Source: Diprion similis
Lineage: Eukaryota > Arthropoda > Insecta > Hymenoptera > Diprionidae
Direction: 5' to 3'
DNA: 64,000 nucleotides
Assembly: GCF_021155765.1 (NCBI RefSeq)
Contig: NC_060117.1
Coordinates: 3,231,001-3,295,000 of the forward strand
Shown in pieces: positions 13,392 to 51,310 of this stretch. A program made the translations under genes and the position numbers. The notes under the pieces are model-generated. The model made no database searches. It saw only the letters and a program-made list of their open reading frames with translations, and was not told the DNA's origin. Within the stretch, counting starts at the first letter, position 1. Every line of letters starts with the position of its first letter.

Positions 13392-15104
13392 ATGTCATAC
13401 TGAAAAATGGATTACACGTTGCGTACACGATAATAGTTGTAAAAACAACCCAATGAAAAGAAAAACGCACGTTTTTCATGATATCCTAGTCAATTTTCTC
13501 ATCTTCCGTTAGTTTCTTGTTAGTCTGAAAAAAATGTCAGATAAAAAAGACAAAAAAATGATTTATCATGGGAAGAACTTTTAGTTGAAGATGTCCACGA
13601 GTTCCGATGAGTTTGATACGAACAAGGTAACTGTGTACGTGGTAACCTAACCAGGACTCGCAAAGTCGTCAAGTGAAGAAGGAGACCTGCCTCTTAACAT
13701 TCTTCTGACAAAGTCGGTCGCAAAGTCCCATAAGACATGCTGACACTGTGCTCTCCGTGACCCTAAGAACAAACCGCAAGGTACCTACTGTGTAAGAAGA
13801 CACCATAAGTGCATACTAGACTGCAGGTATAAGGTGCCTGCTCATGAGCTCGGTGTGGCGGGTATAAAAGATGGAGGAATCGCCCAGGTTTTCCTTATAC
13901 AGCTGCTACCAAGTATTAACTGTAAATTGTGGTATACAGACCGCACGATGGTTCTACCCTGCTCTTACAGTAGACATGTATACGTACTTAATTATGCTAA
14001 TCATACAACCACCGGAAGTAGCGTTATAGGCGTTGGGTGCGCGCGTACAACGCGATAGGGACTTGTATGAATGGATGAATGAATGGATGAATGGATGGAT
14101 GTATATCGACTCTTTCTCGAGATACGTATAGAAAAATCCCGTCAAGTTAAATGGATGTAATGTTTGTTTTCTTGCCCCGTGAAACAAGATTTTAGAGACT
14201 TGACGTAAAGGACGACCGCAGAGTTCCCGACATGGTCATTAGTATTCCGGACTCGGAATACTGTATGGAGTGGGTCTTTCGAAAGATAACGCGAGCAAAT
14301 AACTTGAGGCGTATTTTCTATCCCGAATTACTTGTACAGGATGATTCAGAGTTGATGAAAATTTTCCTCTCGGTGTATACAGGGATTAGCGAGTTGAAAT
14401 ATGGAATGAAAATTTCAAATTGGACTTGAAGTTTATTTCAGGAATTTTGCGCGCGAAATTTAAATACCACTGATTGTGAAAAGTCTGTAGGAACTCTATA
14501 TTGTTCAAGAAATTGAATTTGAAATAGTTATACCGGCAAGTTAGATCATAGTTAAATTTGACCTATCAGCCGTGCTTTTTTCAGCTTTCTAACGTACTAA
14601 GAAACACTATTTTTCCTTATATTACATTCGATTCTGAGAAGAATGAAAAAAAAAACGTGACTCTGGGATCGTTTCTGTAGAGAAAAAAAAAATTTCGGCA
14701 ATAGTTTTCATTCGTATCTGAACCTGAATCACCCAGTACGATGAGCCACCTTCGGAATAACTGTTTGTCCCTTGGGATGGGTCACCGTGTTCAAGGGCTG
14801 AGTCACTTATACGGGTCGGAGGACAATACGGGGACAAGGATAATCCGAGTGGAAGCAAAAAAGAGATAGAAACACCTCAAGCAAACCTTTCCTTTTCCAG
14901 CACATTACATTCCATACTAGCTTATAATCCAGCAATATATTATTGTACCCTACAGAGCATTAATGACGTTTTTCTTTTTCTGATATCAGGTAGACTCGAT
15001 GATCGAGTGCTGGGTGTTAAATCCAGACTGCATCTGGTCACCGGAATAAATATCATCAAGGGATAAATATCGGCGAGGAAGAAACGGTCCCAGAGCGTCA
15101 AAAG
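10387..15104. other. Gene-free stretch upstream of the secreted-protein gene
   Basis: No protein gene can be supported. A T run of about 47 lies near 11791-11837, GA repeats near 13214-13243 and 13361-13389, a TA repeat near 13101-13122 and ATGG/ATGA repeats near 14066-14103. TATAAAA occurs near 13863. Acceptor-like sequences precede 14900 and 14991, so untranslated exons of the downstream gene may lie here, but none can be fixed by eye. Confidence 0.5.
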
Positions 15105-18100
15105 ATGAGGTACTGCTGGTTTAAAGTCGCCTTCAGCGCCCTCAGCGGGCTCTCCTTGTACTTTTGCAACGCTGCGCCGATCGGTTCGACACTCCCGGAA
15201 GCCAAGGACACGGCATATTCGCATCCTGCGCGGACGCTGGACACTGACCAGGGTCTGGGTCAGCCGATTGACATGGCATGGGAGGCGTGGATTGTGACTG
15301 ACAAGAAGCTGTCTGAGGATGGATCGAACTTTGAAGCGTCGACGGCTCCACGACGGATCACCAGTAAAAGTGTCTTCCTTCCTCCGTCGGTGAACAAAAC
15401 TTGTGACGATGGTTACCGCTTGGAAAGCAATATGACATGTGTCCCGATCACCATCAGTTTCAACCCCCACAGCCACTTCGAAAACTTTATTCTATCACGT
15501 CTGAGGAATCGTACATTCGCAAATTCCACCAGCGTCACTAAATTAACGATGTATGGCCCTGTTCAGGTATGATCTATATCGACTACGAATATTTAAAATA
15601 TCGATCATAAAATCTGACACATCGGATGTATAACACACTTGGACACTTTGTACCATTGATCGGATCATCAGACCGATCAATTACCGCGACATCGGTTTTC
15701 CTTATCGGTTAAAGTAAACTTATAGTTCTGGTTCGCCCTGCACGTGACAATAGCTGCTAAATCCACCGATATCGACATCGAATCGAACCACCGAGTGCAA
15801 TATCGGTAACCATTAAAGTAAAAGTTGGCGCCCGATCACGTGGTTAGACAGTGGAGTAAAAGGTTGGCCAGGTCTCACTGTCTACCAAAGTGGTGTGGAA
15901 ACGTTCTTCCTCTCATCCAGCGTGGATGAGGTGCATGGGGTGAAAGAATTTCAGGGATCAAGCTTCGCTGTCGTTGCAGACCGGTCGAGTAGCTAAAAAT
16001 GGCGTGCTTTTTTTAGGTAGGCTTACCGCTTAGTATAGAAGACAAGAGGCCACCCCCATCGTCGAGTGAGAAGCCAGAACGCGACGAAGATTCGGTCGAG
16101 ATTGCGGTCGTCCATCCAATCCAGGAGGACAAGAAGTCGGAGATCGATATGGAGGCGGGGTTGACTGTCTACCTCCTTGGAAACGGGACGACAAAGAGCG
16201 CCAACTCTTCGGGGGCTTTTGAAGATCAAGGGACAGGCGGTGAGCCATCCATTGCAGACTTCGTCGAGGATGGGAGCCAGGATTTTACCGAGATGATAAA
16301 CTACCGGATTCCCATCGACCTTGGACACCTTCTGAACGGTTCAAAGCTCAGCGAAAACTCGGAGAGTTATGAGTCGGGGAAAAACGTCACGACGAACGAG
16401 ACCCAGACGTTTGTGCTGCTTCTCGCACCGGCTGTAGTGACGACCTTGACATCCGAAGAACCAACGACGACGTTGTCCAATGATGAGAGTTTCCTCAGGA
16501 ATCACAAAAATGGCACGGTCAACTCGACGGACAGCCACGGGGTACCGGTCAAAATTGATGGACCGGATTCTCCGTACGTATTTTTAATTGTATGTTCTTC
16601 ACCTTTTCTCTATCTTCCTACTACGTTCAGAAACCTCGACGATCTTCTTGAGTTATTGGGTATTCAGAAGCCTGACCGAGAGCCGAGACCTTCGTAATCG
16701 CGATTTACATCCAGCTCTGCGCAATGTCTAAATAATTATTGTCATTCGAACGTTGATTGGGATTGTTCGGTTATGGCTTCCGCGATGATTCGCCGATCGG
16801 ATCCTCACTGGCTGGTGTCGACTGAAGTTTTTTGAAAATTGATTTTATGGTTTTGTTTCCCGAAACACCGTATAGCTAATCGTCATATTTGGCAGCCTAG
16901 GTGGATCCTGATCGCGTAGACGACGAATCAAGATAAAAAGCGTTTCTTGAAAGCGGTAAAAGTAACGGTCATTTGGTGTACTTATACATAGGTAACGTAC
17001 GTATGTACATACATAAATGAGACCAAGATCCAGCATTACGTGGATTAGCATGCGTGCAGGGCCTAGCGGAACGAACTAAGCAAGATTACAATCCGTAGTG
17101 TCAAGTTAGGAAAATTCGACTTTGGTGTTGACTCAGCGTGAATATAGCCTTCACTTGAATCAGGACTCTACCTCACCTTTGAGGGTCGATTCGCCACTTA
17201 TTTTCAAAATGTATGTAAACTTAAGATCGAAAAACTTCCTCGACAACAAATTGCTAACCGTCATTACCGATTTTCATCAACAGCTCCGTGGGTACCGTAG
17301 AAGAGGAGGCAACAACACAGTCCGAGTTCACCACCGCAAAAGAGGAGGAGGAGGAGGTGGTGGAGGAGGAAAAAGAGGCAACTACATCAGGCGACGACGC
17401 GACTGAGTCCTCGACGATATCTTTCGAGGATGAAGAGAGCCTGATCTGGACGACACTTGACCCCGAAGACCAGGAGGAACTGCTGACGCACAGTGAAGCC
17501 GGAATGCTGGTCTCACCAGGCAACTTGAGACCATTGATATCGGACCCTATAAAGCAGGAGCCACCGATGAACGAAGAGGAGGAAGTCAGCCAGATATCAA
17601 GCGAATCGAGCATCCGGGGCGACATGATCATGGAAACGACGCTTCTGGGTCTCCACGCAACCCCGAAGAAGCCCGACGCGCTGTCCGAGCTCTTCGAGTC
17701 TAATCCCGAGGTCGTCTTCTCACCACAGGACGATCGTCGCCCTGACAGAGCGAGCACTAAGGAGTCAAAGGACGACTCTTCAACAGTCCCTCAAGGATCG
17801 CTACTCGCCAATGATGCCGAGGTGATTCCGACGCTGAGAAGGACCATCTCGAGTGCGAATCAAGGTCGGGTTAGGTTCCCCGAGGACCCAACGAACCCTT
17901 CGTCAAGCTACGTTCTCTTCCCGGGTGACAACAATTCGAACAGTGTAAACGAAAACCTGGCCTACAAGAAGCGGCGGGAACGGATCTCATCACCCTTCGA
18001 GGACGCTACCACCGGAGTTACTTCGGATCAACTCGACCAGAGAAACACCCAATGGATCGGCCTACCCGCCGGACATGAAACCGGAAGTAGTCGACGCTCT

Positions 18101-21495: not shown

Positions 21496-22242
21496 TCAAC
21501 CGACTTTGAGACCCTTGAATCCCTTGGCAAGAAGGAACTTTTCTGAAGATTCGGTTCTGGTAGCATCGGGCCTGAGAACTTTGACGGTTTTGTAAAATTT
21601 CCTGATATCGTCCTCGACGTTTTTGGCCGCACCGCCGTCCCAAAGTTTGACGATAAACGACGCCTCGGGCTTCGATACGACGAGGGCAAATTTGAGCGCG
21701 ACGTAGGCTAGAGCGACGATGTTTTGGTGATCCATTTCCTTCACGCCGGTCGCGTTTGGCGCCATATCCGACATGACAAGGTCGACGGAACTGCCAGCGA
21801 GATGTTCCCTGATCTTGTCCTGAGCTTGGGGCGTCGTGAAGTCCATGTTGCCTATAACGAAGGCTCCGTCGATAGGGTAAATCGGCAACTTGTCTATAGC
21901 CACTACTTTACCGACCGGTTTACCGTCCTGCTTGCCCTTGGCGTTGGTCAAATGGACCGCCACTTGCGTCCAACTTCCGGGCGAAGCACCACAGTCTACA
22001 ACCGTCATACCCGGCGAAAGTATGCCGCACCTTTCGTCCATCTCGAGCAATTTAAATGCACTTCTACATCTGTACTTCTCAATTTTTGCTTTCTCGACAT
22101 AAGGATCGGCCAATTGTCTGCGAAGCCATAACTGCGAACTCGTTTTACGACCCTTCAAATTATTCGGCGTCTCGCGCCGGGCTATTCCACTCGTGCACAC
22201 GCCTCTGGCAATTATCGATAATCGCGCGCGCGCCGACGCCAT
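21496..22242 (-). CDS. MRM2: MRM2, mitochondrial rRNA 2'-O-ribose methyltransferase (FtsJ/RrmJ family)
   Basis: A single uninterrupted exon encodes 248 aa. The family methylates a uridine 2'-OH in the A-loop of mitochondrial large-subunit rRNA using S-adenosylmethionine. The FtsJ fold is clear: FKLLEMD near residues 63-69, the SAM-binding loop VVDCGASPGSWTQVA at 81-95, VMSDMAPNATG at 156-166 and SFIVKLWDG at 195-203. The K-D-K-E catalytic tetrad can be placed at K64, D159, K199 and E234. The N-terminus (MASARARLSIIARGVC) is basic and hydroxylated, as expected of a mitochondrial targeting peptide. Length suits the mitochondrial paralogue rather than the longer cytosolic or nucleolar FTSJ1/FTSJ3. 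The 5' flank holds AGGTTAGGTT near 22281. Confidence 0.96.
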   Translation of the reverse strand: MASARARLSIIARGVCTSGIARRETPNNLKGRKTSSQLWLRRQLADPYVEKAKIEKYRCRSAFKLLEMDERCGILSPGMTVVDCGASPGSWTQVAVHLTNAKGKQDGKPVGKVVAIDKLPIYPIDGAFVIGNMDFTTPQAQDKIREHLAGSSVDLVMSDMAPNATGVKEMDHQNIVALAYVALKFALVVSKPEASFIVKLWDGGAAKNVEDDIRKFYKTVKVLRPDATRTESSEKFLLAKGFKGLKVG

Positions 22243-23425
22243 GTTTTATCTCAAGGTCACAGTTGCAAACTCGAACCGATAGGTTAGGTTATGTTACGTT
22301 AAGTTTAGTTTGCTGCACACCTCGCGCACTGTGATTGCAGGTTATGTCCTTTCCGACGACATAGCGCTGGATAATTGAACAACAGTAATTACGATGTTGA
22401 TGTAGATTCTAAGAAAACGGTTTAGCTCGAATAGCAGTGTCTGTATTCTTTTTCACTCTTTAGTTCTCTTGTGAAGCAGAAGTTTTTTTTTTGCTAGGAA
22501 CACGTTACGTTGTATTATTTATTTATATCAATTTACATGTATATCCTTACCGCGCACTGGCGCCATCTTGACATAATTTCTGCAGCTCAATTTAGTCAAG
22601 GTTCTAAATAGAAGCTTGCAACACCCGGCGGACAATCCTGAGGCGCTATAAAGTCTCAAAAAATGCCTACAATATTTTTATACATATTTAGAAAGATTGA
22701 TTTCTCATTTTGAATCCTGTTAGAATAGACGCAAACCCTAAGAGTAAATCTACCAAACTTTATACAGAGATGACTTACAGTTTCATCGTTTACTGGGTTC
22801 CTGCCGATAAAGAAGTTACCGGATCGCCAACACGCTTTCTTATGGCCCTAACTCCACCCAGACCCACTTACCCGCCGAGTAATGTTCACATAGTCTTACC
22901 AAGATATTTATTTTTAAATTCTTCGATCAAAGCTTTCATCAAACTCGTGCTAGCAAGTCCTTAGAAAAAAAAAATAGCGCAATTAAAAAATGTAATCAAC
23001 TCTATATTCAACCGCTCACAATCAGTGGCACTAACCGCAGCGCTTCCATTTGTTATTCAGGGACTACAGCTAACGAATTGGTCGTTCTTCATAAGAATTC
23101 ATTAGTCTATGGCGCGTTTGGCACATGCGCAATAATGGCATCAGAGCGACGGTCGTGTCAGCAGAGCAATAGCAAGAGCAGTTCGGATTTCGGTGTACGC
23201 AATGGACCTCGGATGACAAGAGTAGTAAACGCGGAACCGGTCATAAAACATGATCGGTAAAAGGTGTTCTAGTACTTCTAGTGCGTACTGATAAAAATAC
23301 AATAAAAAAAAAAAAAAAAAAGAAGAACAACGATTCGAACATTGTGTCATTGAATAAATTCGATACATAGACGGTACAAAAACGAATAAAAAAAAAAAAA
23401 TATATATATATATAATTTCACTGCG
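22243..23425. promoter_or_regulatory. Intergenic region between divergent MRM2 (-) and WDR45B (+)
   Basis: About 1.2 kb separates two genes transcribed away from each other, so promoters of both must lie here. AGGTTAGGTTATGTTACGTT sits just upstream of the MRM2 start. An 84-codon open frame near 22710-22964 has no recognisable motif and I do not call it a gene. An A run and a TA repeat lie shortly before the WDR45B start. Confidence 0.5.
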
Positions 23426-23767: not shown

Positions 23768-25679
23768 AATACGTATTGTTTGTCAACCTGTCATCCAAAC
23801 GTCTCCAAATAAATAATTGGAAAGAAAAGAAATGGAAGAAAAAAAATTCCTCTCACCCAAACAACAACTCCCAACACCTCTTGTTTTCCCTATCGTTTCT
23901 CCTGCACAAAAACTACGCCAAATATATATCCTCGATGATATTCGTTTAGGGCGCAAGGTTGATTCAATGAGACGATAAGTAAACTAAGAGAATAACAACG
24001 TTGGAAATAAATAAGCAAACAATAAAACGACTCTCTCGACGACAAAAATAAAACTTGTACGCGCGTAGTCGTAATGTGTTGTAAACAGACGATAAGATGG
24101 ATATACACAACGTTGTTAATTATCTAGTTTGATAAATTGACGTGCGCAGATCGTCGTCGATCTGATGTTTTTTTGTTTTTGTTTTTTGTTTTTTTTTTTT
24201 AATATCTTTTTTGCCAATTCGTAGGTTGCTTCGCCTGTGGAATGGAGAACGGATACAGGGTTTACAACTGCGATCCGTTGAAGGAAACCGAACGTCACGT
24301 TTTCAGCGACGGAGGTCTTGGTCATGTGGAAATGCTCTTTAGATGCAATTACTTGGCCCTTGTCGGCGGCGGCGCGAAACCCATGTACCCAACGAACAAA
24401 GGTGAAAGAGAAGGGACGGAAATCTGGACGCGTCGTTCAAGCACAGTTTATTCGAAAGACGACTCTCGACTCGACTCTCATCGTCTTTTTATTAATTTTT
24501 CAGTCATGATATGGGACGATCTGAAGAAAAATCCTGCCATAACACTCGAGTTCAACGCACCGGTCAAGGGGGTCAAACTACGAAGGGATCGAATAGTCGT
24601 TATACTCGAAGGGGTGATAAAAGTCTACACGTTTACGCAAAATCCCCAACAGTTACACGTCTTCGAAACAAATCCAAACCCTAGAGGATTGTGCGTCCTA
24701 TGTCCAAATAGCAACAATTCACTCTTAGCTTTTCCTGGCAGAAAAAACGGCCACGTTCAAGGTAAGATCGTCGCCGAGATTCTTTCGATTCTTATCGCCT
24801 CGTTTCAAAGACAAAAAGAGCGAACAATTTTTATTCTCAGTCTAAAAACAATTCTCGACGAACTAAATAAAGAATATCTCCTTCGCTCCTCCGAACAAAA
24901 ACGCCAAACTGAAATTATTTTCTCGCAGTGATAGACCTGGCGAACACGGAAAAACAGCCGTTGAACATAGAAGCGCACGAAACGCCGTTATCCTGCATAT
25001 CTCTGAATCTGCAAGGTACGAGGTTGGCGACGGCGTCAGAAAAGGGAACGTTGATCAGGGTATTCGACACCCAGAACGGAAACATGATAAACGAATTAAG
25101 AAGAGGGGCGAATCACGCCAACATTTACTGGTGAGAACGACGTTCGAACAATCGCCCAGACTCTATTGAATATCGCTTAACATATTTTCATTTCACCTTT
25201 AATTCCCTTGATTCTTTCAGTATAAATTTCAACCATGACTCGACGTGGCTTTGCGTAGCGAGCGACCACGGAACTGTCCATGTCTTTGCTGTGGAGGATC
25301 AGAAATTGAATCGCCAGTCGAGTCTTGCGTCTGCGACTTTCTTGCCAAAGTATTTCAGCTCCAATTGGAGCTTTTGTAAATTTCAAGTACCCAGTGGACC
25401 GCAGTGTATGTGCGCGTTTGGCAAAAACAACAACACCATAATCGGTAAGTTCCTATCAAATTGTATTTATAAATTTCAAATTTGATATGCGGATCGCCTA
25501 ATCTATTTAGACAGAAAAAAAATTCTTTCTCATTTTCTATTTTCCCCCCCGTCGTTCTGCCCGCAATAAAAGTTATATGTGCGGACGGTAGCTATCACAA
25601 ATTTTTATTCAACAACAAAGGAGAATGCAGCAGAGATTTCTACGCACAATTTTTGGAAATGACAGACGACAAGATGTGA
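23426..25679 (+). CDS. WDR45B: WDR45B/WIPI3, PROPPIN autophagy WD-repeat protein, six exons, 344 aa
   Basis: Exons are 23426-23492, 24225-24401, 24504-24761, 24929-25130, 25221-25444 and 25573-25679, all GT-AG and phase-consistent. The product is 344 aa, the length I recall for the human protein. It starts [20 protein letters not shown] and ends [11 protein letters not shown], both hallmark ends of WIPI3. The seven-bladed propeller carries the LRRG phosphoinositide-binding motif at residues 224-227 ([14 protein letters not shown]). Family members bind PI3P and PI(3,5)P2 on forming autophagosomes and endolysosomes. Other signatures are [19 protein letters not shown] and [21 protein letters not shown]45/WIPI4 is the nearest alternative, but the length and both ends favour WDR45B. 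Confidence 0.97.
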
Positions 25680-35713: not shown

Positions 35714-37674
35714 ATGGAACCAAGGACCGAAAGGGTCGCCATTGGCGTCGGAGCGATCCACAATCCAGCGAGAGCGCAATACAGCGAGGAAACGCGAGAT
35801 TTAATCAAGAGTACGAAATCCAGAAACAAATATGAATGTTTTTACAGTATGGGCATTAAAAAGTCCACTTTTTGTGGCAGTTTTCGTTCCGTAAAGTGAC
35901 GCTTTATACGGCAGCGAACAAAGTTGCGGAATAAAGTCTTTATTCCGCAGTTTTGACGCGCAGTTCGAAGTGCGCATCCCAAACTGGCGAATAAAGTAGC
36001 TTCGTCGAACAGATCGCGACATAACCTCACTCTTCGTTTTGCTTTTCAATGCCCATAGCGTAAAAAATATTGTATGTGGCATGCCCGTAAACCGTTTTTT
36101 GGCTCGGATAATTTCAGTACTCGCTTCCGGCTCGCCTTCAGCTCGTCCTGAAATCTTTATCCTTGCCAAAAAAAAAAAAAAAAAAAAAAAACAGGCGGTT
36201 TACGGGCATGCCACATAAATAGCTATTATTGAGTCGATCGATAATAAGGATTTATCTGTTTATTTGTTTCTTTTTTTTCTTTTCCTAATTTGTCAATTTT
36301 TCATAATCCTTATCGCGTTCGATTTTTTTTTCCTTCTTTCTTCTTCGTTCGCTAATATCTGTGGCATAAATTATATGATCAGTTCTTATGGAGGAGGCTA
36401 GACTCACTATGATGCAGAGGAAATCTATACAAGACGCTGTCGACAGAGGTGAATCACTGCCCCCACCTTCTTCGGCTACGAAAACCGCAAAAACGAAGAA
36501 CGAAAAATTTGCCGAAGCTCAGGTATCCTTAAACAACGCTGTGTTATTATGCTCAATTCAATTTCATCTATCTATCTATCTATCTATTTATTTATTTATT
36601 TATTTACTCTACTCATTTTTTTCTTATCCAATTAAACATCGACGAGGAAAATTTTATCCATTCAAGGGGTTGCTCTTATGAAATTATCAAAATCCACATG
36701 CCTCAAACGAAAAAAATGGTCAAATGGATTCCAAAGAATTACCATTCGACGCAGAAATGAAGAAATGACAGTAAATTCGTAAAATTCATGCCATTTCTTT
36801 ATTTCTACATCAAACGAACATACATTGGAGTGTTTTCGTTCGGTATTGCTTATAGTTAAAGACAATATTATTTACACAGGTCATGTTTCCATGCGTATGG
36901 AAGAAACGATCGCAGGATATAATTACAAAAAGCGGTGCCTACGAAAGGGAACAGTTTAGACGGACGGCGCCATTGCGTAAGGATTTTTTTATTACATTTT
37001 TACAATCTGCTCCTCAATATTTCGTGTAATAAGTTTACCAGAGAATATTTCAAAAATTCGTAGTAGTTTTTTTGTTTTTTTTATTTCTTTCTTTCTTTCT
37101 TTCTTTCTTTATTTATTCTTCCACAGTTACTTTATAGCTTCAAAGTGATTTTCTATTTCAATCCTCGGTTTTTCCCCCCAGTTAACAAAGAGAAACAAAA
37201 ACGTCATCTCGCATGCATGATGGCATTTGGTAAAGACATGCCGCCCACTCCACACGGTCCAAAACTACTTCACAGAGGTCGAAAAACAATGCGTAAAATA
37301 CCAGATGACGTCGATCCGTTGAACGAAAGTGAGTTATTCTTTTCTAAATTTCTTGTTTCTTTGAAAAAAGAAAAAAAAAAAAAAAAAAAAAAAATTTAAA
37401 ACTTGATTTAAACTTATTTTGGCTTAAAAATTATAATTTTACCACAGTTGTCAAATCGATCGAGGAAAGAATCGAGTTCGTTCGCGAAATGGAAAGCTTG
37501 GGTCAGGGTAAAAAGTATCGCCCTATAATACAGCAGGAAATAGCTCAGAAATTGAGACTATTAGAAACGATCGATAAGCAGAGATCAGCCGATGTTAAAA
37601 AAATCATACAAAGATTCGAGGGAGATAGATCGTCACCAAAACCTCCCTTTCCTCTCGGCGAGTTGGACTGCTGA
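35714..37674 (+). CDS. C22orf23: UPF0193 / EVG1 (C22orf23) homologue, five exons, about 235 aa
   Basis: Exons are 35714-35810, 36383-36522, 36880-36976, 37182-37328 and 37448-37674, phase-consistent. The protein has the UPF0193 blocks in order: YSEETRDLIKILMEEARLT, GAYEREQFRR, EKQKRHLACMMAFGKDM and the C-terminal IEERIEFVREMESLGQGKKY then IIQQEIAQKLRLLETID. Human C22orf23 is close in length. The molecular role is not established; expression of the family in ciliated tissue is my recollection, and the upstream X-box fits it. The start is uncertain: ATG 35714 is the conservative choice, but an ATG followed by a GT donor at 35602-35604 could splice to 35673 and extend the N-terminus. Intron 1 holds a two-module MITE. 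Confidence 0.9.
35848..36217 (+). mobile_element. Two-module MITE (A then B), copy 1
   Basis: Module A (35848-36057, 210 bp) runs from TATGGGCATT to AATGCCCATA. A 15-bp linker near GCGTAAAAAATATTG follows. Module B (36073-36217) runs from TATGTGGCATGCCCGTAAAC to its inverse ending GGGCATGCCACATA, with an A run before the right arm. Both modules have TA at their tips. The same A-linker-B unit is at 41515-41888 in reverse order. It sits in intron 1 of the EVG1 homologue. Confidence 0.88.
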
Positions 37675-39305: not shown

Positions 39306-42300
39306 ATGATGAAACCATCGAACAGAAACGCGAAGCTCAAAGAACTTCTCGGCATTATTTTACGACCGGATTACAACGCAGCGTCGGAATCGACCTTCGA
39401 CGATCTAATTTCACACATCGAGAAGAGCATTTCAAACAGATGTAAGATACCGCGCACGCTATGCGTGTGACCACTTTTTGTATTAACGATATTCCGTAAA
39501 ACTTGTTTATCAAGAATGTTTTTTTTTTTTTTTATGACGTTGGACAGGTTGCAAAAGCTGCGACATCGACAAATCGATTCTCCAAAAATGGGTCCTGAGT
39601 GCACTGGCAGCTTGGACTTTGACGAAGAAGAAGCCGGACCAGTCAGTGATAGTGTTCACCGTAAAATTGGTGGAACTTCTCAGCCAGGACGAGTTCGACT
39701 TCCTCTTCTGGTACCGCGAGGATGTGTTCAAAAAAATGAGCGCAGCTTTTGGACTAAAGAAAGACGACGACATTCAGACGTCTGTGAAAGTTGCCTACGT
39801 AGGAATGTTCCTTCAATTTGTTAATCACAAGAGCGGACGACATTGGATCATCGAGTCTGGTGAGCGTGATTACAGAGATTTGTGAGAACCAAGAACCAAA
39901 GACGATATCTAACACGGTATGAAATTAATTTCACAGGTGCGTGGAAAGAAGTTGTCAAACTAACGGATTCGAGTAAACAGCCACAGGCGGTGACAAGAGA
40001 GAGTAAAAAAATCGTCTGCAAATTACTACTGGCCGAATCGTTAAACACAACATTTTGCGAACAAGTCATTTCAGCGATCGCCAAGCCCCTGATCAGCCGC
40101 AATATCGCTACTCCGGTTCAACCTGATCTTGAAGATCCCAGCAAACGGGATGAAAATGCCGAGTTTTTCATCGCCTTGGAGGTGCTCACTGAGGTAATGG
40201 AGAACACAGTGTTCGCCACCATGGACAACACGATACCGCTTCTTGTGGCGACGATAACGACTCTAGACTTGCGGCTGCAAATCTTGTTCGAAACATGCAC
40301 AAAGCAAAGTTTCTACTCTCACATTATGAACCTGATGTATCTGATTGTGTTCACAAGACTGAAGGATGGAATGAGTGTACCGGACGGAACGGTCGAGAAA
40401 GATGTTTGGAGGGTGTTCAGGGATAGCTTAAGGTACATCGAATCGGTACTGATAGTCAAGAAGCACATCGAGAACATCGTCAAGGGCGAAAAGATATTCT
40501 TAACCTACCTCAACAGGATGAACAAGTTGTGCAAAATCAAAGAACCCGGGGATATAAAGATCGAGCATCATGCAGTTCTGATGATGGTAAGAGAAGACGG
40601 CATTTCATCTTATTCGTGTTAGAACAAAAGAACAACAAACAAACAAAACAAGAAACACAATTTACAGATAATACCGATGTCATCGTGCGTCGCGAGAGGC
40701 GAGGTTGATGTGGACATACTTGAAACTTTGGCGTACAAAATTATGTCAATGACCGACCCCGCTACTCAGAGATTGGGCTACATGGTGCGGAGTATAGTTC
40801 TTAACGACGATGCCTTACCAGCGGAAGATATTGCCAAAACAGCCGCCCGGGTGTCAACCGATGTCCTCGACATTGTTGACAGAGTAAGCTTTGATTCAAC
40901 CGAGGAAATTTATGATGATTAATAGTGTTGTGATTTTGGAATATCCTCGATTTTTCATCTCATTCACAGGACAGTACGGTGGTCATATTTCAAGTGATGT
41001 CGCACACGTTGAACAACTACGTCAACTTACGGAGCAGTAAAAAGTGTCCGAACGAACTGAGCTGCACCGGTTTTGCAGATATCAAGCAAGACGACATTAC
41101 AAACATGAGAATGAATAACCAAAAATGGCGCGTTCGCGGTGACCCGATACTCAAATTTCCACACCTCTTGTCTACATTGATGGACGGTATCGCCACGATT
41201 CTGACCAAGTATCAACTCAAGTGGCAAGATTGTTTGGAAACCATAAGCATTCTCAACCTGGCAGAGGACATCATCAATCATCCAAAAATCACTTCGAAGG
41301 TCAGTCTATACATAGTTTTTGAAACTTTGAGATACGAACGGTCTGCCAATGATATATGGTCATTTGAAGGGCTTATCATTGATCAATCAGAGTGCCAACT
41401 CACTCAAATTATCTTGAAACCTTGACATAAAAATTTTACGAATTTAGGTTTTTAAAACAGTTTTAGATTATGTGATACGGTCAGCAACGATGTCCTTGAC
41501 TTACAATAGCTATTTATGTGGCATGCCCGTAAACCGCCTGTTTTTTTTTTTTTTTTTGGCAAGGATAAAGATTTCAGGACGAGCTGAAGGCGAGCCGGAA
41601 GCGAGCCGGAAGCGAGTACTGAAATTATCCGACCCAAAAAACAGTTTACAGGCATGCCACATACAATATTTTTTACGGTATGGGCATTGAAAAGCAAAAC
41701 GAAGAGTGAGGTTATGTCGCGATCTGTTCGACAAAGCTACTTTATTCGCCAGTTTGGGATGCGCACTTCGAACAGCGCGTCAAAACTGCGGAATAAAAAC
41801 TTTATTCCGCAACTTTATTCGCTGCCGTATAAAGCGTCACTTTACGGAACGAAAACTGCCACAAAAAGTGGACTTTTCAATGCCCATAATGCGACTAAAT
41901 ATGAAGAATTCATGTTTTCTTACCCTAATATCATTTAAGATATGTGTCCAAGCACTGACGCTGTGCAAATTGGCAGTAGAAAATTTTATGGCACCGAACT
42001 TGGCATTGCTGGTGCAATCCGACTGTCGCGAGGATGAAATGGGATGCATTTTGTACAAAAGAATGCACGATCCTAACTGGAAGGTCAGAGCTAGCACTTT
42101 GGACGTGATTAGAACGATTGCGACGATATCCGAACACAGTAAGACCTCCTCGGAACGAGAATAAAATAATGAAATATTATGTAAACAAAGCTCAATCCTG
42201 TGAATTTAATCCCTACGTTGTAAAATCATTGTTTCAGAATATCCAGCTTATCAAGATTTGTTAATTGTGAATGGATTCCCAGAGCTAATAATCGACATGG

Positions 42301-43673
42301 CCTCAAACGACGAGAATCGTTACGTTCGATCATTGGCGCTTATGTGCCTCATGATTTTTGTAAAAATAAACAGAATATGGAACGAAAAATTTCTCGATCT
42401 TGATTTACCGGTAAGTTGATCAGTTTTGACGTTGTTTTATTGAATAGTGTGAAAAATTCACTTGTTTCTGAATGAAAAGTAGAAAAAAAAAAAAAAAACA
42501 GAAAAAAGAAATGCAGTCTCATGCATGACGTAACACCATGATTTCTTACTTTCAGAAATTGGCCATTAACCTAATGACTAACGAAAACGAAGCGATGGTA
42601 CGCAGGGATGCGGTTATGCTTGTCAAAGAGTTGTACGTTCATAGAAAATGGCCGTAAGTTTCAAATATTCCCTTATTTTAACGATGTAAATAAAAAATGA
42701 TGAAACAATGTTTCGATGAGAATTAGAATCGTTCCCTGACCTACGCTTTGCGTTCATGATTTTTTTTTTCAGAAGATCAACGATTAATGAAATGACACAT
42801 GCCATGTGCGTGGTGGTCATTTCTGATCCTGACTGGGAAGTCAAAGTGAACGCGATTCTGTTCTGGCAACAAGTAATAAAGTCACATCTCTGCGACCAGG
42901 GTATGCTAGACGGAACATTTCCAACCCACACCTTTTCCAAGGAACATAGAAAAATAGTTTCCCTTGACGAACGGGAAATAAGAAAACGGATTCTGAAGGC
43001 TCTCGACAAATTGGCCAGTGACAGTTGCCTCGGTGTAAGTTTTTTATTTCATTTTATGCCTTTACGATAATCGATTACACTGAAAATTCTTTAAGAAAAT
43101 TTTGCCCTACAGGTACTACTTGCTACATTAGAAGACGAAAGTGATTTTCAAGTCCGCAAAGCATCAGGTGAAATAGTAAAGAGACTTAAAAAAGTTTTTG
43201 TAACTTACAAGATAAGCCCATCTTGTAGCATGGAAACAGCTTATCGTAATGAAGACTGTATTACTACTACCGACAATTTATCGCCGGACAACAAAAGTCC
43301 GGACCGTCGGAGTGCGGATCTGCAAAGCGAAACTGGAGAGTCCGAAGATCATCAGGAATCGCAGGCGAGACTTAGAAACTCGTCTACGGACGCTGAGGAA
43401 GCGAATTTTCTCTCATTGGTCAACGAAGGAATGCATCAGATGAGCATGAATGCCAACAGAAATTTAACCAATGAGGAGAAGTTGGAACATGCGTCTAAAG
43501 TCGGAAGAAATGAATTCATACAATCCGTTCTAACTTGTGACGTCGACAGTTACATAAACGAAAAAAATCGCTCCCTACGGAAGATCTGCGTCAGTAATTT
43601 CGAATCTGTCGTTGAAGAGATTATCAGTGCTCACAAAGAAGGAAATAGCACAACTGACATGGATTGTCATTGA
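39306..43673 (+). CDS. BRAT1: BRAT1-like HEAT-repeat protein, copy A, ten exons, 978 aa
   Basis: Exons are 39306-39441, 39548-39859, 39937-40586, 40668-40883, 40970-41299, 41940-42138, 42238-42410, 42556-42653, 42773-43034 and 43113-43673; all are GT-AG with matching phase and no stops. The protein is all-helical HEAT/ARM, with repeat cores such as HDPNWKVRASTLDVI (from 591) and SDPDWEVKVNAILFW (from 722). Helical architecture, the DPxWEVR-type repeats and the C-terminal SYINEKN...TDMDCH tail fit BRAT1, a BRCA1/ATM-associated protein that binds INTS9-INTS11 of Integrator; insect CG7044 is the counterpart I recall. Family identity is from memory of those features, not from a search. The start could be either of two adjacent Met codons. 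AATAAA lies at 43685. Intron 5 contains a two-module MITE. Confidence 0.8.
41515..41888 (-). mobile_element. Two-module MITE (B then A), copy 2, inverted
   Basis: Module B (41515-41663) and module A (41679-41888, 210 bp) repeat the unit at 35848-36217 in reverse complement, including the linker and the flank AATAGCTATTTATG beyond the B tip. A short tandem duplication (GAGCCGGAAGC twice) distinguishes module B here. It lies in intron 5 of BRAT1 copy A, with its right end about 50 bp before the exon 6 acceptor. Long open frames across it are arm sequence, not a gene. Confidence 0.88.
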
Positions 43674-43982
43674 TCGATTTATCGAATAAAGATCGATCAG
43701 TTTTAAATTTGAGAACCATGCAAGTAAATAAGCTTGGTTTCTGTACTTTATTGTATGTCCACAACAATTTTAACCGTCTACAACCGTGTAGACGTGATAT
43801 TTATAAATCAACAGACATCGCATTCTGTTTGACTAACCTGATATTTGTGCGGTTATGAAAACGCAATCATAAACGTAAGCATAACATCAAATACAATTTT
43901 CATTTTACACTCAGTTATTGTATATACACAGTGAATTCCTAACGACTGCATCGTCCTTCGTCTGCTAAAATTTAATGCGCAC

Positions 43983-44123
43983 ATGCCACAATGCGAGAGC
44001 AACTGTCTGCCAGTGCAACCAACCGTCAGAAATGTAACCTCAAAAATAGTAGTTGTAGAAATATTTTTGAGGTTAAGGGCAGTTGGTAACCCTCGCAAAC
44101 AGTTACTCTCGGATATAATGGCG
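43983..44123. repeat. Imperfect hairpin element
   Basis: TAACCTCAAAAATA at 44034 is the exact inverse of TATTTTTGAGGTTA near 44062. The arms extend outward with mismatches: GCGAGAGCAACTGT mirrors ACAGTTACTCTCG and ATGCCACAAT mirrors ATAATGGCG. It could be a short MITE or a transcribed stem-loop. Confidence 0.55.
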
Positions 44124-45286
44124 CGATGCTTACACGTCTAGTAAAATCATGCATAATGGGGATTTGATGATAACTTACCATCCGCTCATCGGATAAACTT
44201 TGTCAACTGCATGGTGGCAGCAATCCGTAGGTCGATTCTGATCAGCATGTCACTCACTTGATCACCACTTCACATGCACTTCACATAACTTAAGTTTTTA
44301 CACGAAGAACTGACCATTCCGCAATCAATCGCGCAACTGATTTTGAGACGGCAAAACTTAAAGCGACTTCGCTGCACTACCGACGCAGCTGCAACTCTTT
44401 CAAGTTCGAATAACAAATTAATTTACAACTAACCTCACGTCGTTCAAAGTACCTAATTCGAATAAATTGATATTAATTCAAATGATTTCTCAATGAGATG
44501 ATCAATTGAGAAAAGTCGGAAGATAAATTATTCGTATCAGTAGGTGGTAAAGCCGTTGACTGCGAATGAAAATTTTAGATAGTTTTCAAAACTGAACTAC
44601 GAAAATCTCTGTAAATAAATATATATATATATATATATATATATTCTTGCAATCTAGATAAAATTTTTCATGTGCATGTGTACAGAATTAATCACTCCTT
44701 CACAAATTTTCCAAAACTAGATCGCAAGCGATTTTAAAAATTGCATCAAATCTAGGTGTGGACCCCCCCTCCCCCTCCCCTTCCCCCCTATTTCCCCGAA
44801 AATCTGTCGCGGATCCGCATCTGCTAATTATCCGAGAGAAACGATTTGATAAACATCGCGAAATCTGATAATTTTTTTCCATCGTGCGGAGCGTGAGGTC
44901 TCAAGCGACGCAATGGAGATTACAGAAGACCCGAGTAAAGTCGGCAATACCGACGATTGGTAACTCCACTTCAATTCGTACAGAACGCGGCGACCGTGAT
45001 GCTCGAATCACGGCTCGAATCGAAGTGCCGCTGGGCAGAGAAGTTTCTAGGGAAACTCCATTTCGCGTCGCGAGTGGCGCTGTAGGCAGCGTAAGCGCAA
45101 GGAATTCTGGGAAGCTTCTTTCGTTTCCGCTATCTCTGGGTATGGAATGTATTTATGTATGTACAAAATTTCGCGGAACTAAACTTCTCCTGCTGTGGCA
45201 AACAAACACGTGGCATTTTCAGGAGTTAGGAAACAACACCATAGACTTTATATATGAGAATAGACCGCGGGTAGTGAACGAAAAAT

Positions 45287-45425
45287 GCGATATTCTCGTG
45301 AAAAGAGAGAGCTGCAGTTGAGTCATAGGCATCCTTGTCTAGCTTGCAAGACTAGACAAAGATGCCCATAGTTCCAACGCAGCTCTCTCTCTCTCTCTCT
45401 CTCTCTTTTTACGCAAGAAAATCGC
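45287..45425. repeat. Long hairpin, MITE or microRNA-precursor-like
   Basis: The core 45305-45389 pairs GAGAGAGCTGC with GCAGCTCTCTC, then ATAGGCATCCTTGTCTAG with CTAGACAAAGATGCCCATAG, around a loop of about 9 nt (CTTGCAAGA). The stem extends outward through GCGATATTCTCGTG and its near-inverse ending AAGAAAATCGC. Small bulges and a tight loop resemble a pri-miRNA, but a MITE is equally possible. Confidence 0.65.
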
Positions 45426-46466
45426 GTATGGAATTCTGTGATCGCAAACCGTCGCCATGACAGTAGGCAGGTCTGATGTGCGATATGCGCATGCTCAGTC
45501 CTTGGCAGTAGGCTTTACACACAATCGCCATCATAACACAGCGCAATAGTGGCTACATACCATCGCAAAAACATCATAACATTGAAATATAGTAAAACTT
45601 GAACGCTCGTCTCTTGTCTCTTTTTTCAGATACTTGTTGTTGATTGGCAACAACAGATGACTCCATCTTTCTTTTAATAATGGAAAGCTTATTTCTATCT
45701 TTGTTCAACCAAATGCGTTCCATTATTACTATATTTCGTTGCATCATAATCACCATGTGTTCGCTGGAAGCGTATTCGACGAACGCAACAAACTGAAGTA
45801 ACTAACTACACGGAGGAGAGTGAAGGGCGCATCGTTATCATTAGTGTGATATAATTCCATACATATATATGTATTTCTAACCTCATTAAATGCGCAATGG
45901 TATCTGATTACCAACATAGTCTGTCTCCATAAGTCTTTTTTTATTTCCCTGTTGTTAAAATTTAAGATCTACGAGTGGGGAAGAACTCGAGTATGCAAAT
46001 AAATTGTGCAAAATAAGTCTGTTGGACGCAGTAACTTGAATTAACAACGTTACGCGGTGAAGCCAACGACGACATGCACCTGTGACCCATACAAATCATA
46101 ACCAATGAAAATTATTTGTTAAAAAGAAAAATAAGAGAATAAAGAAATACATAATCAATCTAAAGAAAAAAAAAAAGAATTTATAAAAAAAAAAAAAAAA
46201 AAAAAAACAAATTTGTCCAATGTCTTCTTTATATAACTGAACACACGCACATATGCAAATAATTTATGCATAAAGTACCGAACACAGTTATACACATGCC
46301 TTGACGAGAGATGTGTAGAACTTGACACTGACCACAGAGAGAGTTTTTGTCCAAGATTCCATTTACATGGCTGAGGTTGACAATCTTTTTACAGTAAACG
46401 AGTAATCATTTGCAAAAATTGCCGTTTAAACGTATACATCACACTCAGGCTATCTTGCAACACAAA

Positions 46467-49400
46467 ATGTTCTCGAAAAAGTCTTCCGATAGATTAGACA
46501 AGCTCAAAGAAGTTCTTGAACTTCTGCTGCTGCCAGATTACTACATCGCTTCGGCCACTTACTTCGACATACTGTTGAGCCACATCGAGAAGGATATTTC
46601 CAACAGATGTAAGTTGTGGAGAATATTAGTAATTACTTACCTGCACGGAGATAATTTTGCAGAAAGAACTTGGACTATGAACGTTTGTAATTCTTTCAGG
46701 TTGCCCAAACGAAAATATCGACAAATCAGTTTTGCAGAAATGGGTTTTGAAAGCTCTGGACACTTGGACCGCGGAAAAGAAGCCCTGCCAGGCTGTGACT
46801 GTGTTCACCGTCAAGCTTGTTGGACTCTTGGGTCGCGATGAATTCAACTTCCTCTTCTGGTATCGGGAAGATGTATTCAAGAAACTGAACGCCGTTTTTG
46901 CTCTTAAGGATGCGAACCTTCAGGCCTCCGTCAAAATGGCCTACACGGGCATGCTGCTCGAGTTTGTTAATCACAAAAGCGGACGGCAGTGGATCGTTGA
47001 GACTGGTAAAACGTTGATTAACATTTTATATGCATTTATAGCGGTAAACGAGAGTTGCAACTTGTAGCGTTTCCAAATAGAAAACGTAGCCTTGTTGTTA
47101 TAGTTCGTTTATTCAATTTCACGTTTTACGCGGCTCGACTGAATTCTCATATATACATTATACACGTTATTATTAATTCCGCAGAAACCTGGAGAGACGT
47201 GGTGAGGTTTTGCCATTCTAATCACACGCTGTACGTAACAAGAGAGAGTCAAATTTTTGTTTGGAAATTATTGCTGGCCGAATCTGAGAACGAGACATTC
47301 TGTAAACAGGTGATTTCCATCGCTGTAGAGCCTTTGGTCAGGAACAATTTCAGTTCTCAGGTTCACCCGTCGCTGGAAGAAAATTATCTCGAGCAAAATT
47401 CAGAGCTTCTTACAACGCTAGCTCTGCTCACAGCAATAATGGAAAACACGTTATTCGCCAGTATGAATAACACGATACCTCGAATCCTGGAGTCGATAGG
47501 GAATCTCGAATGCAGGATAAAAGGATTATTCGAAACCTGCATAAGCACAAACTTTTATGCACATATTATGAAACTATTGTACTTACTGTTGTTCATGAGA
47601 CTGAAAGAGGGAGTCAATGAAACGGAAGGGACCGCCGACTCCGAAACGTGGAAAGTTTTCGGGACCAATTTACGATACATAGACTCTATGCTGGTTGCTA
47701 AGAAACTCATTATCGACATGGCGAGAGGCGGAAAACTCGTTTTAACTTACTGGAAGAAGATTAATAATTTATGCGCTTTGAAAGAACCCAGTGAATTCAA
47801 AATGGAAATTCACGCAGTGATTCAAATGGTAAAATCTTCAGAATTTTACAATTCAAAATTCATATCGCTAAGCATCGATTCTGATCTTAAGTATGAACGG
47901 AAAAACAATTTTAATAAATGCGTTACACAGATCATTCCACTGACCGTTTGTATGCGGCTTCCCGACTTGGCCGAAGACGTATTGGAAGTCTTTATACACA
48001 AACTCTTTGCTCTAACGACTACTTACACCCAGAGGCTAAGCTATATGAGCCGCGACACTTTGATACGAGGAGATTTGCCGGCTGAGTTAATCGCCAAAAC
48101 GTCGATTCAAATAGCGCTGGACACCATAGACATCATAGACAGGGTGAGTAAAAGCGTGAATCTTATTTTTCCGAACATTTCATGTTGTTTTTTTGTTTTT
48201 TATTTTATTGCAGAACAGCGCCGTTATCATATTTCAATTGATGTCGCACGTTTTGAAGCAGTACGTAATTGCGACAAACGAAGATGCGACGAGCAAAATT
48301 GCAACTCCGCCTCAGGAGCAGAAAAAAGAGAATCAAAGTTGCCGAGTACCAAGATACAAGGGACTCCTTTATGGCGATCCGATAGTGCAATGTCCGCACC
48401 TCTTGATCGCGCTGCTTGACGGTCTCACAATAATTCTACAGAAGTACAAACTCAAGTGGCAAGAATGTTTGGAAACTATTGGCATTCTTTCGATGGCTCA
48501 AACTATCCTCAATCATCCAAACGCCATACCTAAGGTACACATAAAGTTACCTTTTGAATAGAAATGAGTTGCCAAGAAAAATTAAGGGGCGGGAGGGAGG
48601 GGGGTAAGGGTTTCAGCGTAAAAAAAAACACTTTATTTGTGAATTTTTTTTGAAATTATGGTTTGAGCAAATTCATTGAAACCTTTTGTACATTATTAAG
48701 CATACTTTTAACAATATTCTGTAATTTTTTCATGCAGAAATATTGCAAAACAAGCCGGTGACAGAGCTTGCCCCAGAACGTCTTAGAAAAAAAACCATTT
48801 GCGGTGTTCACGATATCTCGGTCGGAAATTATCTGAATTCAAAATCCATTAAAATTTAGTCAAAGTATTATCAAATCCTCTCCCCAACGTTCTACGATTA
48901 TTTTTTTTTTCATTTAAAAATTTTTGGAGGCCATCTAAAGTGTGAATTGCTATTTTCCACGACAAATTCCGCCATTTTGTGGGTGGGAAACCCCCTTAAT
49001 GTTAAAAAAAAAATTTCAACTAAACGTCGGGGGGAGGTATTTTATATGTAGAAAATGTGTACCAAGTTTGGAATGAATCGGTCAAGTAGTTTGTAAATGG
49101 CAGTGAACACGGACTTTGAAAAAGTAGTTTTGAGAAAATCGCGTTTAAAGTTTATTGAGCTAAAAAAGTGAAGAAAGAAAGCTCTTTCACCGGCCTGTTT
49201 TGCAATATTTCTACATAAAAAAATTACAGAATATTGTTAAAAGTATGCTTAATAATGTACAAAAGGTTTCAATAAATTTGCTCAATCCATACTTTCAAAA
49301 AAAATTCACGAAAAAAGTGTTTTTTTTTTACGCTGAAACCCTTACCCCCCCCCCCCCCCCCCCTTCAAGAGTTCTGCTCAGATCGACTTAAAATTTTGTG

Positions 49401-51310
49401 AATATAGTCTTGAAATGTTTAACAATAAGATGAGACAAAAAAAAAATTCAATTTTTGCCCCCGTAAAAGGAAGCGAGCGAGTTAGGAAGATAAGAACTCA
49501 CGGAGGTAAAAAGCTGCGAAATGTGTATGAATTCTTTTCAATTAGTTTTCTCTCGATGTCTGGGTAACTCGTTGGACATTGCGAAATCAATTTATATCAC
49601 TAACTCTTGGCTGAACGCTCGTTTGAATGCAATTTGATATTGTTTAGGTGTGTATCCAAGCACTTTCGCTTTGCAAACTAGCGATTCAGAATTTTATGGC
49701 ACCAAATTTGGCGCTGCTGGTACAATCGGACAGTCTGACGAACGAAATGCAGCCCGTATTGTACAAGAGGGTACACGATCCAAACTGGGAAGTTAGAGAC
49801 AGCGTTTTGGAAGTAATTAACACAATCGCGACGATATCGGAAGACAGTAAGCCCGCGTCAAGTGTTCAATAAAAATCTAAACAACGAAGGTTGGGATTTT
49901 GAAACTAATCGTCGTGTTTATCGTGTCTTTTGTTCCAGAATATCCAGCCTTTCAAGATTTACTTCTTGGTAATGAATTCCCAGAACTAATCGTCGACGTT
50001 GCGACAAAGGATGGCGAGAGCTACGTTAGAGCAACGGCACTTACCTGTATCGTAACATTTGTCAGGATAAACCGAATATGGGATGAAAAATTGCGTCATC
50101 TTGATCTGCCGGTAAGATTATCGTTGGGCATAATTCCGTTGAAATGATGAAGCATTGAATGTGATTTCTGAATTAAAAGAAATCAGTCTTAAATGTAAAT
50201 CATAAATTACTCTGTTTTGTTACTTTCAGCGAATGGCCATTGATTTGATAGCGAATGAAAGCGAAGCAATAGTGAGAAGAGAAGCGGTCATGCTTGTCAA
50301 AGAGTTATACGTTCATAGAAAATGGCCGTAAGTTTAAAGATTTTATTTTTAAAAAGTTTAAACGATTAAGAAGAAATATTTAGCGAATTAATTGAAATTC
50401 AATAATTTTTGCACAGAAAATCAACAATCAATGAAATGGCGAAGGCTATGTCTGTCGCGGCAGTCTTGGATCTTCACTGGGAAGTCAAAGTAAACGCACT
50501 TCAGTTCTGGACTCAATTTATTAGGTCGCATTTGAGCGACCAGGGAATGCTCGACGGAACATTTCCAACTCATACATTTTCCAAAGAACATAAGAAAATA
50601 GTTTCCCTTAACGAGTACGAAATAAGAAGACGAATTTTAAAGGCTCTCGACGAGTTGGCGCACCAAAATTGTCTCGGGGTAAACTAAACTCCGTTTAAAC
50701 ATTACGAAATTGTGGTTTCATTCTTCGATTCACCGTCTAGAAAATTAATTGAATTATATCTACGTAGGTACTTTTAGCTACGCTGGCAGACGACAGTGAT
50801 TTTCAAGTCTGCAAAGCATCTGGAGAAATAGTAAAGAAGTTACAAGAAATATTCGTCAAATACAAGATAACTGCGTCTTGTAGTACAGAAGACGACGTCC
50901 CTCGGAATGGTAACAAGAAAAAAATTAATTTCCAAGTGTTTCCGGAAGCTGAGAATCAGACGCGTGTTAACACTCAAAGTGAAACCGGGGAGTTCGATGG
51001 TCAGTCGGCGATACCTAAAGAAATAATCGACTTGATTGTAAATGCCGACGACATGAGTCTCCTGGGTTCTGTTTACAAACGTTCGAATATAAGCGTCAAC
51101 GAAGAATCATCGGAATGTGAGAAACTCCAGTACATATCCAAAGTTAGAACCGACGAATTTCTTCACTCGGTTCTCAGCTTTGACGTCGATGCTTATATAG
51201 AGGAAAAAAATCGATGGCTAAAAACTTATACAAACAGTTTTAGCTCCGTCGTCGAAGATATCATCGTCGCTCACGAGAGACACAATGTCAACGATATGGA
51301 TTGTTATTAG
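46467..51310 (+). CDS. BRAT1: BRAT1-like HEAT-repeat protein, copy B, ten exons, 966 aa
   Basis: Exons are 46467-46608, 46700-47005, 47185-47828, 47931-48143, 48214-48534, 49648-49846, 49939-50111, 50230-50327, 50417-50678 and 50768-51310. Every splice phase equals that of copy A, and exons 6-9 have identical lengths (199, 173, 98, 262 bp), so this is a tandem duplicate on the same strand. Shared blocks include LLWYRED-type FWYREDVFKKL, FVNHKSGRQWI, HDPNWEVRDSVLEVI and SDQGMLDGTFPTHTFSKEH. Most divergence lies in exons 1, 3 and 10. It ends NDMDCY. As for copy A, the proposed role is support of the INTS9-INTS11 endonuclease and of ATM signalling. No frameshift or stop is visible, so both copies appear functional. 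Intron 5 carries a fold-back element unrelated to that in copy A. Confidence 0.8.
48586..49363. mobile_element. Fold-back MITE with about 180-bp inverted arms
   Basis: The left arm (48586-48768) starts in a G-rich tip (GGGGTAAGGGTTTCAGCGTA) and passes GTACATTATTAAGCATACTT and GCAAAACAAGCCGGTGA. The right arm (about 49185-49363) is its inverse and ends in a run of about 19 C. The loop is about 415 bp. No transposase frame is seen. It lies in intron 5 of BRAT1 copy B. Confidence 0.85.

Follow-up and report, generated by a model that had tools for sequence, protein, structure and literature searches.

BRAT1 is a partner of the RNA-cutting enzyme INTS11 and helps in its maturation, and neurons are harmed by the loss of BRAT1. 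BRAT1 is usually known as a single-copy gene. For Drosophila, a solved structure is available for FI02071p (PDB 8uic chain T), which we take to be CG7044, the fly BRAT1. In work by Lin et al. 2024 (Mol Cell), the C terminus, which is conserved in BRAT1/CG7044, reportedly lies in the active site of INTS11, with a cysteine touching the metals. According to PMC9418311, BRAT1 has been proposed as a factor in the stability or incorporation of INTS11. A comparable arrangement is given in PMC11904178, with reference to Lin et al. 2024, for UBE3D, whose conserved Cys144 occupies the catalytic centre of CPSF3, also named CPSF73. As described, UBE3D works like BRAT1 in that a beta-CASP nuclease receives a conserved cysteine in its active site, but it belongs to another family (Pfam HECT_2) and is a separate gene in the genome studied here.

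BRAT1 copies in the window and on a second contig

The window, i.e. the whole stretch of 64,000 nucleotides that was analysed (C13:3231001-3295000), is part of a 269 Mb genome of 60 contigs. From the raw window sequence, two gene models were built by hand: copy A (39306-43673, 978 aa) and copy B (46467-51310, 966 aa), adjacent on the plus strand and spaced by 2793 bp. Both have ten exons with GT...AG at nine out of nine introns, the same cumulative intron phases (1,1,0,0,0,1,0,2,0), equal lengths of exons 6-9 (199, 173, 98 and 262 nt) and neither frameshifts nor internal stops. The models agree with the pair described in an earlier note on this DNA, including its protein lengths, matching phases and intact frames. 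In a two-sequence alignment, A and B are identical at 527 of 960 aligned residues. The positions of all exons and of the two intron repeats are listed in Table 1.

Table 1. Exons of the two window copies and repeats in their fifth introns (window positions)
Feature	Position	Strand	Basis
A exon 1 (start codon)	39306..39441	+	gene model
A exon 2	39548..39859	+	gene model
A exon 3	39937..40586	+	gene model
A exon 4	40668..40883	+	gene model
A exon 5	40970..41299	+	gene model
Repeat in A intron 5	41505..41891	.	blastn, 93% to window copy, 90% to C14 copy
A exon 6 (199 nt, as in B and C)	41940..42138	+	gene models
A exon 7 (173 nt, as in B and C)	42238..42410	+	gene models
A exon 8 (98 nt, as in B and C)	42556..42653	+	gene models
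A exon 9 (262 nt, as in B and C)	42773..43034	+	gene models
A exon 10 (tail DMDCH and stop)	43113..43673	+	gene model
B exon 1 (start codon)	46467..46608	+	gene model
B exon 2	46700..47005	+	gene model
B exon 3	47185..47828	+	gene model
B exon 4	47931..48143	+	gene model
B exon 5	48214..48534	+	gene model
Element-like stretch in B intron 5, about 780 bp	48584..49365	.	self blastn
B exon 6	49648..49846	+	gene model
B exon 7	49939..50111	+	gene model
B exon 8	50230..50327	+	gene model
B exon 9	50417..50678	+	gene model
B exon 10 (tail DMDCY and stop; last 3 residues as in fly)	50768..51310	+	gene model, tail comparison

A single-sequence search of solved structures aligned Drosophila FI02071p (8uic) over approximately its full length with both B (1.3e-95) and A (4.7e-71). 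Human BRAT1 (PDB 8uib, 8r22) differs in that its similarity to B is confined to residues 496-663 (8uib, 7.6e-9 over 165 residues), with no significant alignment elsewhere. In the same solved-structure search, A gave no match to human BRAT1 up to E 1. A separate search with just the tail piece of B did not hit BRAT1. When the three copies were combined into a profile, the E value was 1.4e-106 for the fly chain and 2.6e-5 for human BRAT1; a profile of B and the fly chain reached human BRAT1 at 2.3e-10. Both A and B, the copies scanned, contain Pfam HEAT above the cut-off, and A clears the Pfam Cnd1 cut-off too, by about 1 bit. Judged from these alignments, A, B and, through the profile, C are similar to BRAT1 over their full length. 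The earlier description of A and B as BRAT1-like HEAT-repeat proteins is hereby supported, on the one hand by the near end-to-end fly alignment and on the other by the Pfam result.

Searching the genome with B returned 33 matching stretches, which belonged either to the window pair (contig C13) or to contig C14. With C as the query, 34 stretches were found; 33 fell within these two loci, and the remaining one, on C2, was weak (E 0.07). Each of these searches scores the best candidates only, and very diverged extra copies are possible. Copy C (C14:4338545-4347422) has ten exons, the intron phases of A and B, exons 6-9 of equal length to theirs and 962 residues without a stop. In the protein alignment, every intron (9/9) stands at the same column in the three copies. 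Downstream of C (C14, about 4348731-4351434), there is a fragment, D, made up of matches to exons 2, 3, 4 and 5, the majority of which contain stops. In the three-sequence alignment, identity is 524/962 for A-B, 572/961 for B-C and 462/958 for A-C, i.e. 48-60%.

The genome consequently holds at least three intact BRAT1 copies on two contigs, together with the decayed fragment D, which makes BRAT1 a small gene family in this insect. The single-copy state that the earlier note expected of BRAT1 in animals does not apply to this genome, although that was an expectation and not a definition of the family. Likewise, of the 'complete tandem duplication' proposed for the window, the same-strand tandem pair stands, but as a description it falls short, given copy C and fragment D on C14. 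A literature search for BRAT1 copies in insects gave nothing relevant among the titles listed; most subscription papers lie outside its reach, which makes this weak evidence of absence.

Origin and age of the copies

As judged from the sequences, A, B and C arose by duplication at the DNA level, since their introns were kept; all nine are common to the three copies, which rules out a retrocopy origin. A haplotype or assembly duplicate is ruled out by the 48-60% protein identity. A recent duplication or gene conversion was also rejected: the longest identical run between A and B is 22 nt, a length that was matched in 174 of 1000 codon shuffles. At codons that are fourfold degenerate in all three copies, the third bases are identical in 52/131 cases for A and B, 55/131 for B and C and 51/131 for A and C. 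With an agreement this low, synonymous divergence is near saturation and the duplications therefore look old. The pairwise dN and dS of A and B are 0.34 and 1.79, respectively. Compared to fly over 928 ungapped columns, identity is 24% for A, 28% for B and 25% for C. Because the copies are much more alike among themselves than any of them is to fly, the duplications most likely postdate the split from the fly lineage.

A tree was constructed from four sequences, i.e. A, B, C and fly as the sole outgroup. The best tree groups A with C (SH-aLRT 84.6, bootstrap 84), with AU p values of 0.87 for A+C, 0.18 for B+C and 0.06 for A+B. The grouping of A and C joins the two fast copies and may reflect long-branch attraction. 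Among the three topologies, the one that joins A and B has the lowest support, although with an AU p of 0.06 it is not rejected. As these four sequences do not settle the branching order, the two window copies need not stem from the most recent duplication, nor need they have arisen from each other in one tandem event.

An origin of C and D by block duplication of a two-gene unit is unsupported, since the pieces of D are at least as similar to C as to B or A. Leaving aside the exons of BRAT1 and the sequence at their borders, what the 28 kb surrounding C has in common with the window is limited to short segments at 31-36 kb and the intron-5 repeat, all of which we read as repeats. The intron-5 repeat, about 390 bp and 86-93% alike between its occurrences, is also present at 35836-36227 of the window and at C14:4336769-4337143, upstream of C, and looks like a mobile element. 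The stretch in intron 5 of B carries 187-bp terminal inverted repeats (48584-48769 and 49179-49365) that are 93% alike.

Constraint and unequal rates

A three-branch codon model, written for the purpose and applied to 957 codons, gave a branch omega of 0.25 for A, 0.15 for B and 0.28 for C. Fixing omega to 1 was rejected on each branch (2dlnL of 64.7, 45.7 and 23.4, respectively). Synonymous change is about 0.6-1.0 per site per branch, and when neutral drift of this extent (0.6-1.0 changes per site) was simulated with B as the starting sequence, a mean of 33-39 stops resulted (500 simulations each). Based on these two results, A, B and C all look like maintained genes under purifying selection. 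The view that the window holds two maintained, diverged copies thus agrees with our results, A and B being intact and each branch having an omega below 1. Taken together with the fly matches, the simulated stops exclude chance for A and B.

One explanation on which these values bear is birth-and-death turnover, in which most of the copies' function would overlap, with dose or mere chance accounting for their retention and occasional losses occurring. The decayed fragment adjoining C would agree with this, and with INTS11 found once in the genome, an extra chaperone may only add dose. Nevertheless, constraint is significant on every branch, and the copies have been retained over the synonymous change given above with no stop at all, against the 33-39 under neutrality, so we regard turnover as somewhat unlikely.

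When one omega was compared to three, no significant difference was found (2dlnL 5.79, 2 df), and any asymmetry between the copies therefore rests on relative-rate tests against fly. In these tests, a shared residue was lost in A 76 times and in B 43 times (chi2 9.15), with corresponding counts of 71:45 for C against B (chi2 5.83) and 72:65 for A against C (chi2 0.36). Within exons 6-9, the counts are 15:14 for A against B and 17:10 for C against B, while outside these exons they are 61:29 and 54:35, which places the asymmetry mostly outside exons 6-9. With one very distant species, fly, as the outgroup, B looks to be the slowest-evolving copy, and A and C the faster ones.

With a probability of roughly one half, we propose that B keeps the role of INTS11 chaperone and that A and C are specialised paralogues. 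B would then perform the ancestral job of binding and stabilising newly made INTS11 until the latter enters Integrator. A and C would most likely act on that one INTS11 as well, but in a limited context such as a tissue, a stage or the germ line. The earlier note had suggested subfunctionalisation, and its maintained divergence of A and B is indeed observed; an even split fits less well, as A and C look faster than B. An even split, in which A and B each keep a different part of the ancestral function (Integrator versus ATM, or two tissues), would be compatible with both copies being intact and constrained and with the lack of a significant difference among the branch omegas. Yet there are three intact copies and not two, the rates against fly are uneven, and patient cells with p.V62E BRAT1 have no ATM activation defect according to PMC9418311. 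Even subfunctionalisation is thus unlikely, and the uneven rates would be better explained by a conserved original with derived copies. Gene duplication with subsequent uneven divergence is familiar as such; what is of note in the present case is that the chaperone is usually known as single and that the tails have diverged.

Tails and client enzymes

The fly chain, read directly from 8uic, ends in NMISDCY. The corresponding ends are NDMDCY in B, TDMDCH in A and NHMEYC in C. A cysteine is therefore found within the last two residues of all three copies, its position being shifted in C, and B alone among them retains the fly residue order DCY. Fly FI02071p resembles A and B nearly end to end and shares its last three residues with B, but it differs in its low overall identity to the copies (24-28%) and in the DCH and EYC endings of A and C.

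In the proposed role for B, its tail ending in Cys-Tyr would sit at the metal site of INTS11, and the altered tails of A (Cys-His) and C (Tyr-Cys) may alter the strength or the duration of the hold on INTS11. It is doubtful that the endings CY, CH and YC represent a natural set of altered INTS11 plugs that differ in strength or in the hand-over step and give cell-type-specific control of Integrator cleavage, or that A and C have moved to another metal-dependent nuclease. As each of the copies has a cysteine at one of its two final positions, the change of tail may be neutral.

Using a beta-CASP model or an INTS11 query, single loci were found for INTS11 (frame C13:4835594-4837099) and CPSF73 (C1), along with one CPSF100-like gene (C4); these three names come from reading the sequences and not from a family search. 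Neither a second INTS11 nor an extra beta-CASP nuclease was found in the genome with the beta-CASP model and the INTS11 query. The beta-CASP model did not recover any INTS9 gene. There is no sign that INTS11 was duplicated alongside its chaperone. A UBE3D-type gene was found once (C14:5006399, Pfam HECT_2 4.7e-41), which rules out a loss of UBE3D, and there is no indication of its replacement by a BRAT1 copy.

These findings also bear on a change of client, in which A or C would hold another metal-dependent nuclease of the MBL/beta-CASP type, e.g., CPSF73. The tails of A and C depart from the fly tail while that of B does not, and the position of UBE3D Cys144 in CPSF3, as described in PMC11904178, indicates that plugging by a cysteine is also possible with a different client. 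However, the UBE3D-type gene is still there, the genome yielded no extra beta-CASP nuclease, and A and C retain their terminal cysteine, making such a change very improbable. Three old, constrained BRAT1 copies versus the one INTS11 found suggest that the chaperone is able to diversify without a matching increase in its client. A division of the copies by tissue or sex would, if it exists, constitute a layer of Integrator control that is hidden in single-copy animals. The diverged tails are also ready-made variants for probing the last residues at the INTS11 metal site.

The CpG observed/expected ratio was considered as a housekeeping mark and dropped, as B (1.22) is not separable from A (1.18) or C (1.08). 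The ratio is 0.80 for INTS11, 0.79 for CPSF73, 1.50 for the whole window and 1.42 for a neighbouring FtsJ frame. Rfam and tRNA scans of the 64-kb window gave no hits. The FtsJ-like methyltransferase frame lies at 21496-22245 on the minus strand (8.7e-50), and two matches under the cut-off were seen on the plus strand, a PROPPIN-like frame (24203-24931) and a weak match to a Folded gastrulation N-terminus (15021-15572). Elsewhere in the genome, COX1 on C45:19821-21131 seems short of a few N-terminal residues compared to the usual insect COX1, and a second, broken COX1 piece at C7:8182164-8182700 probably represents mitochondrial DNA that was inserted into a nuclear chromosome.
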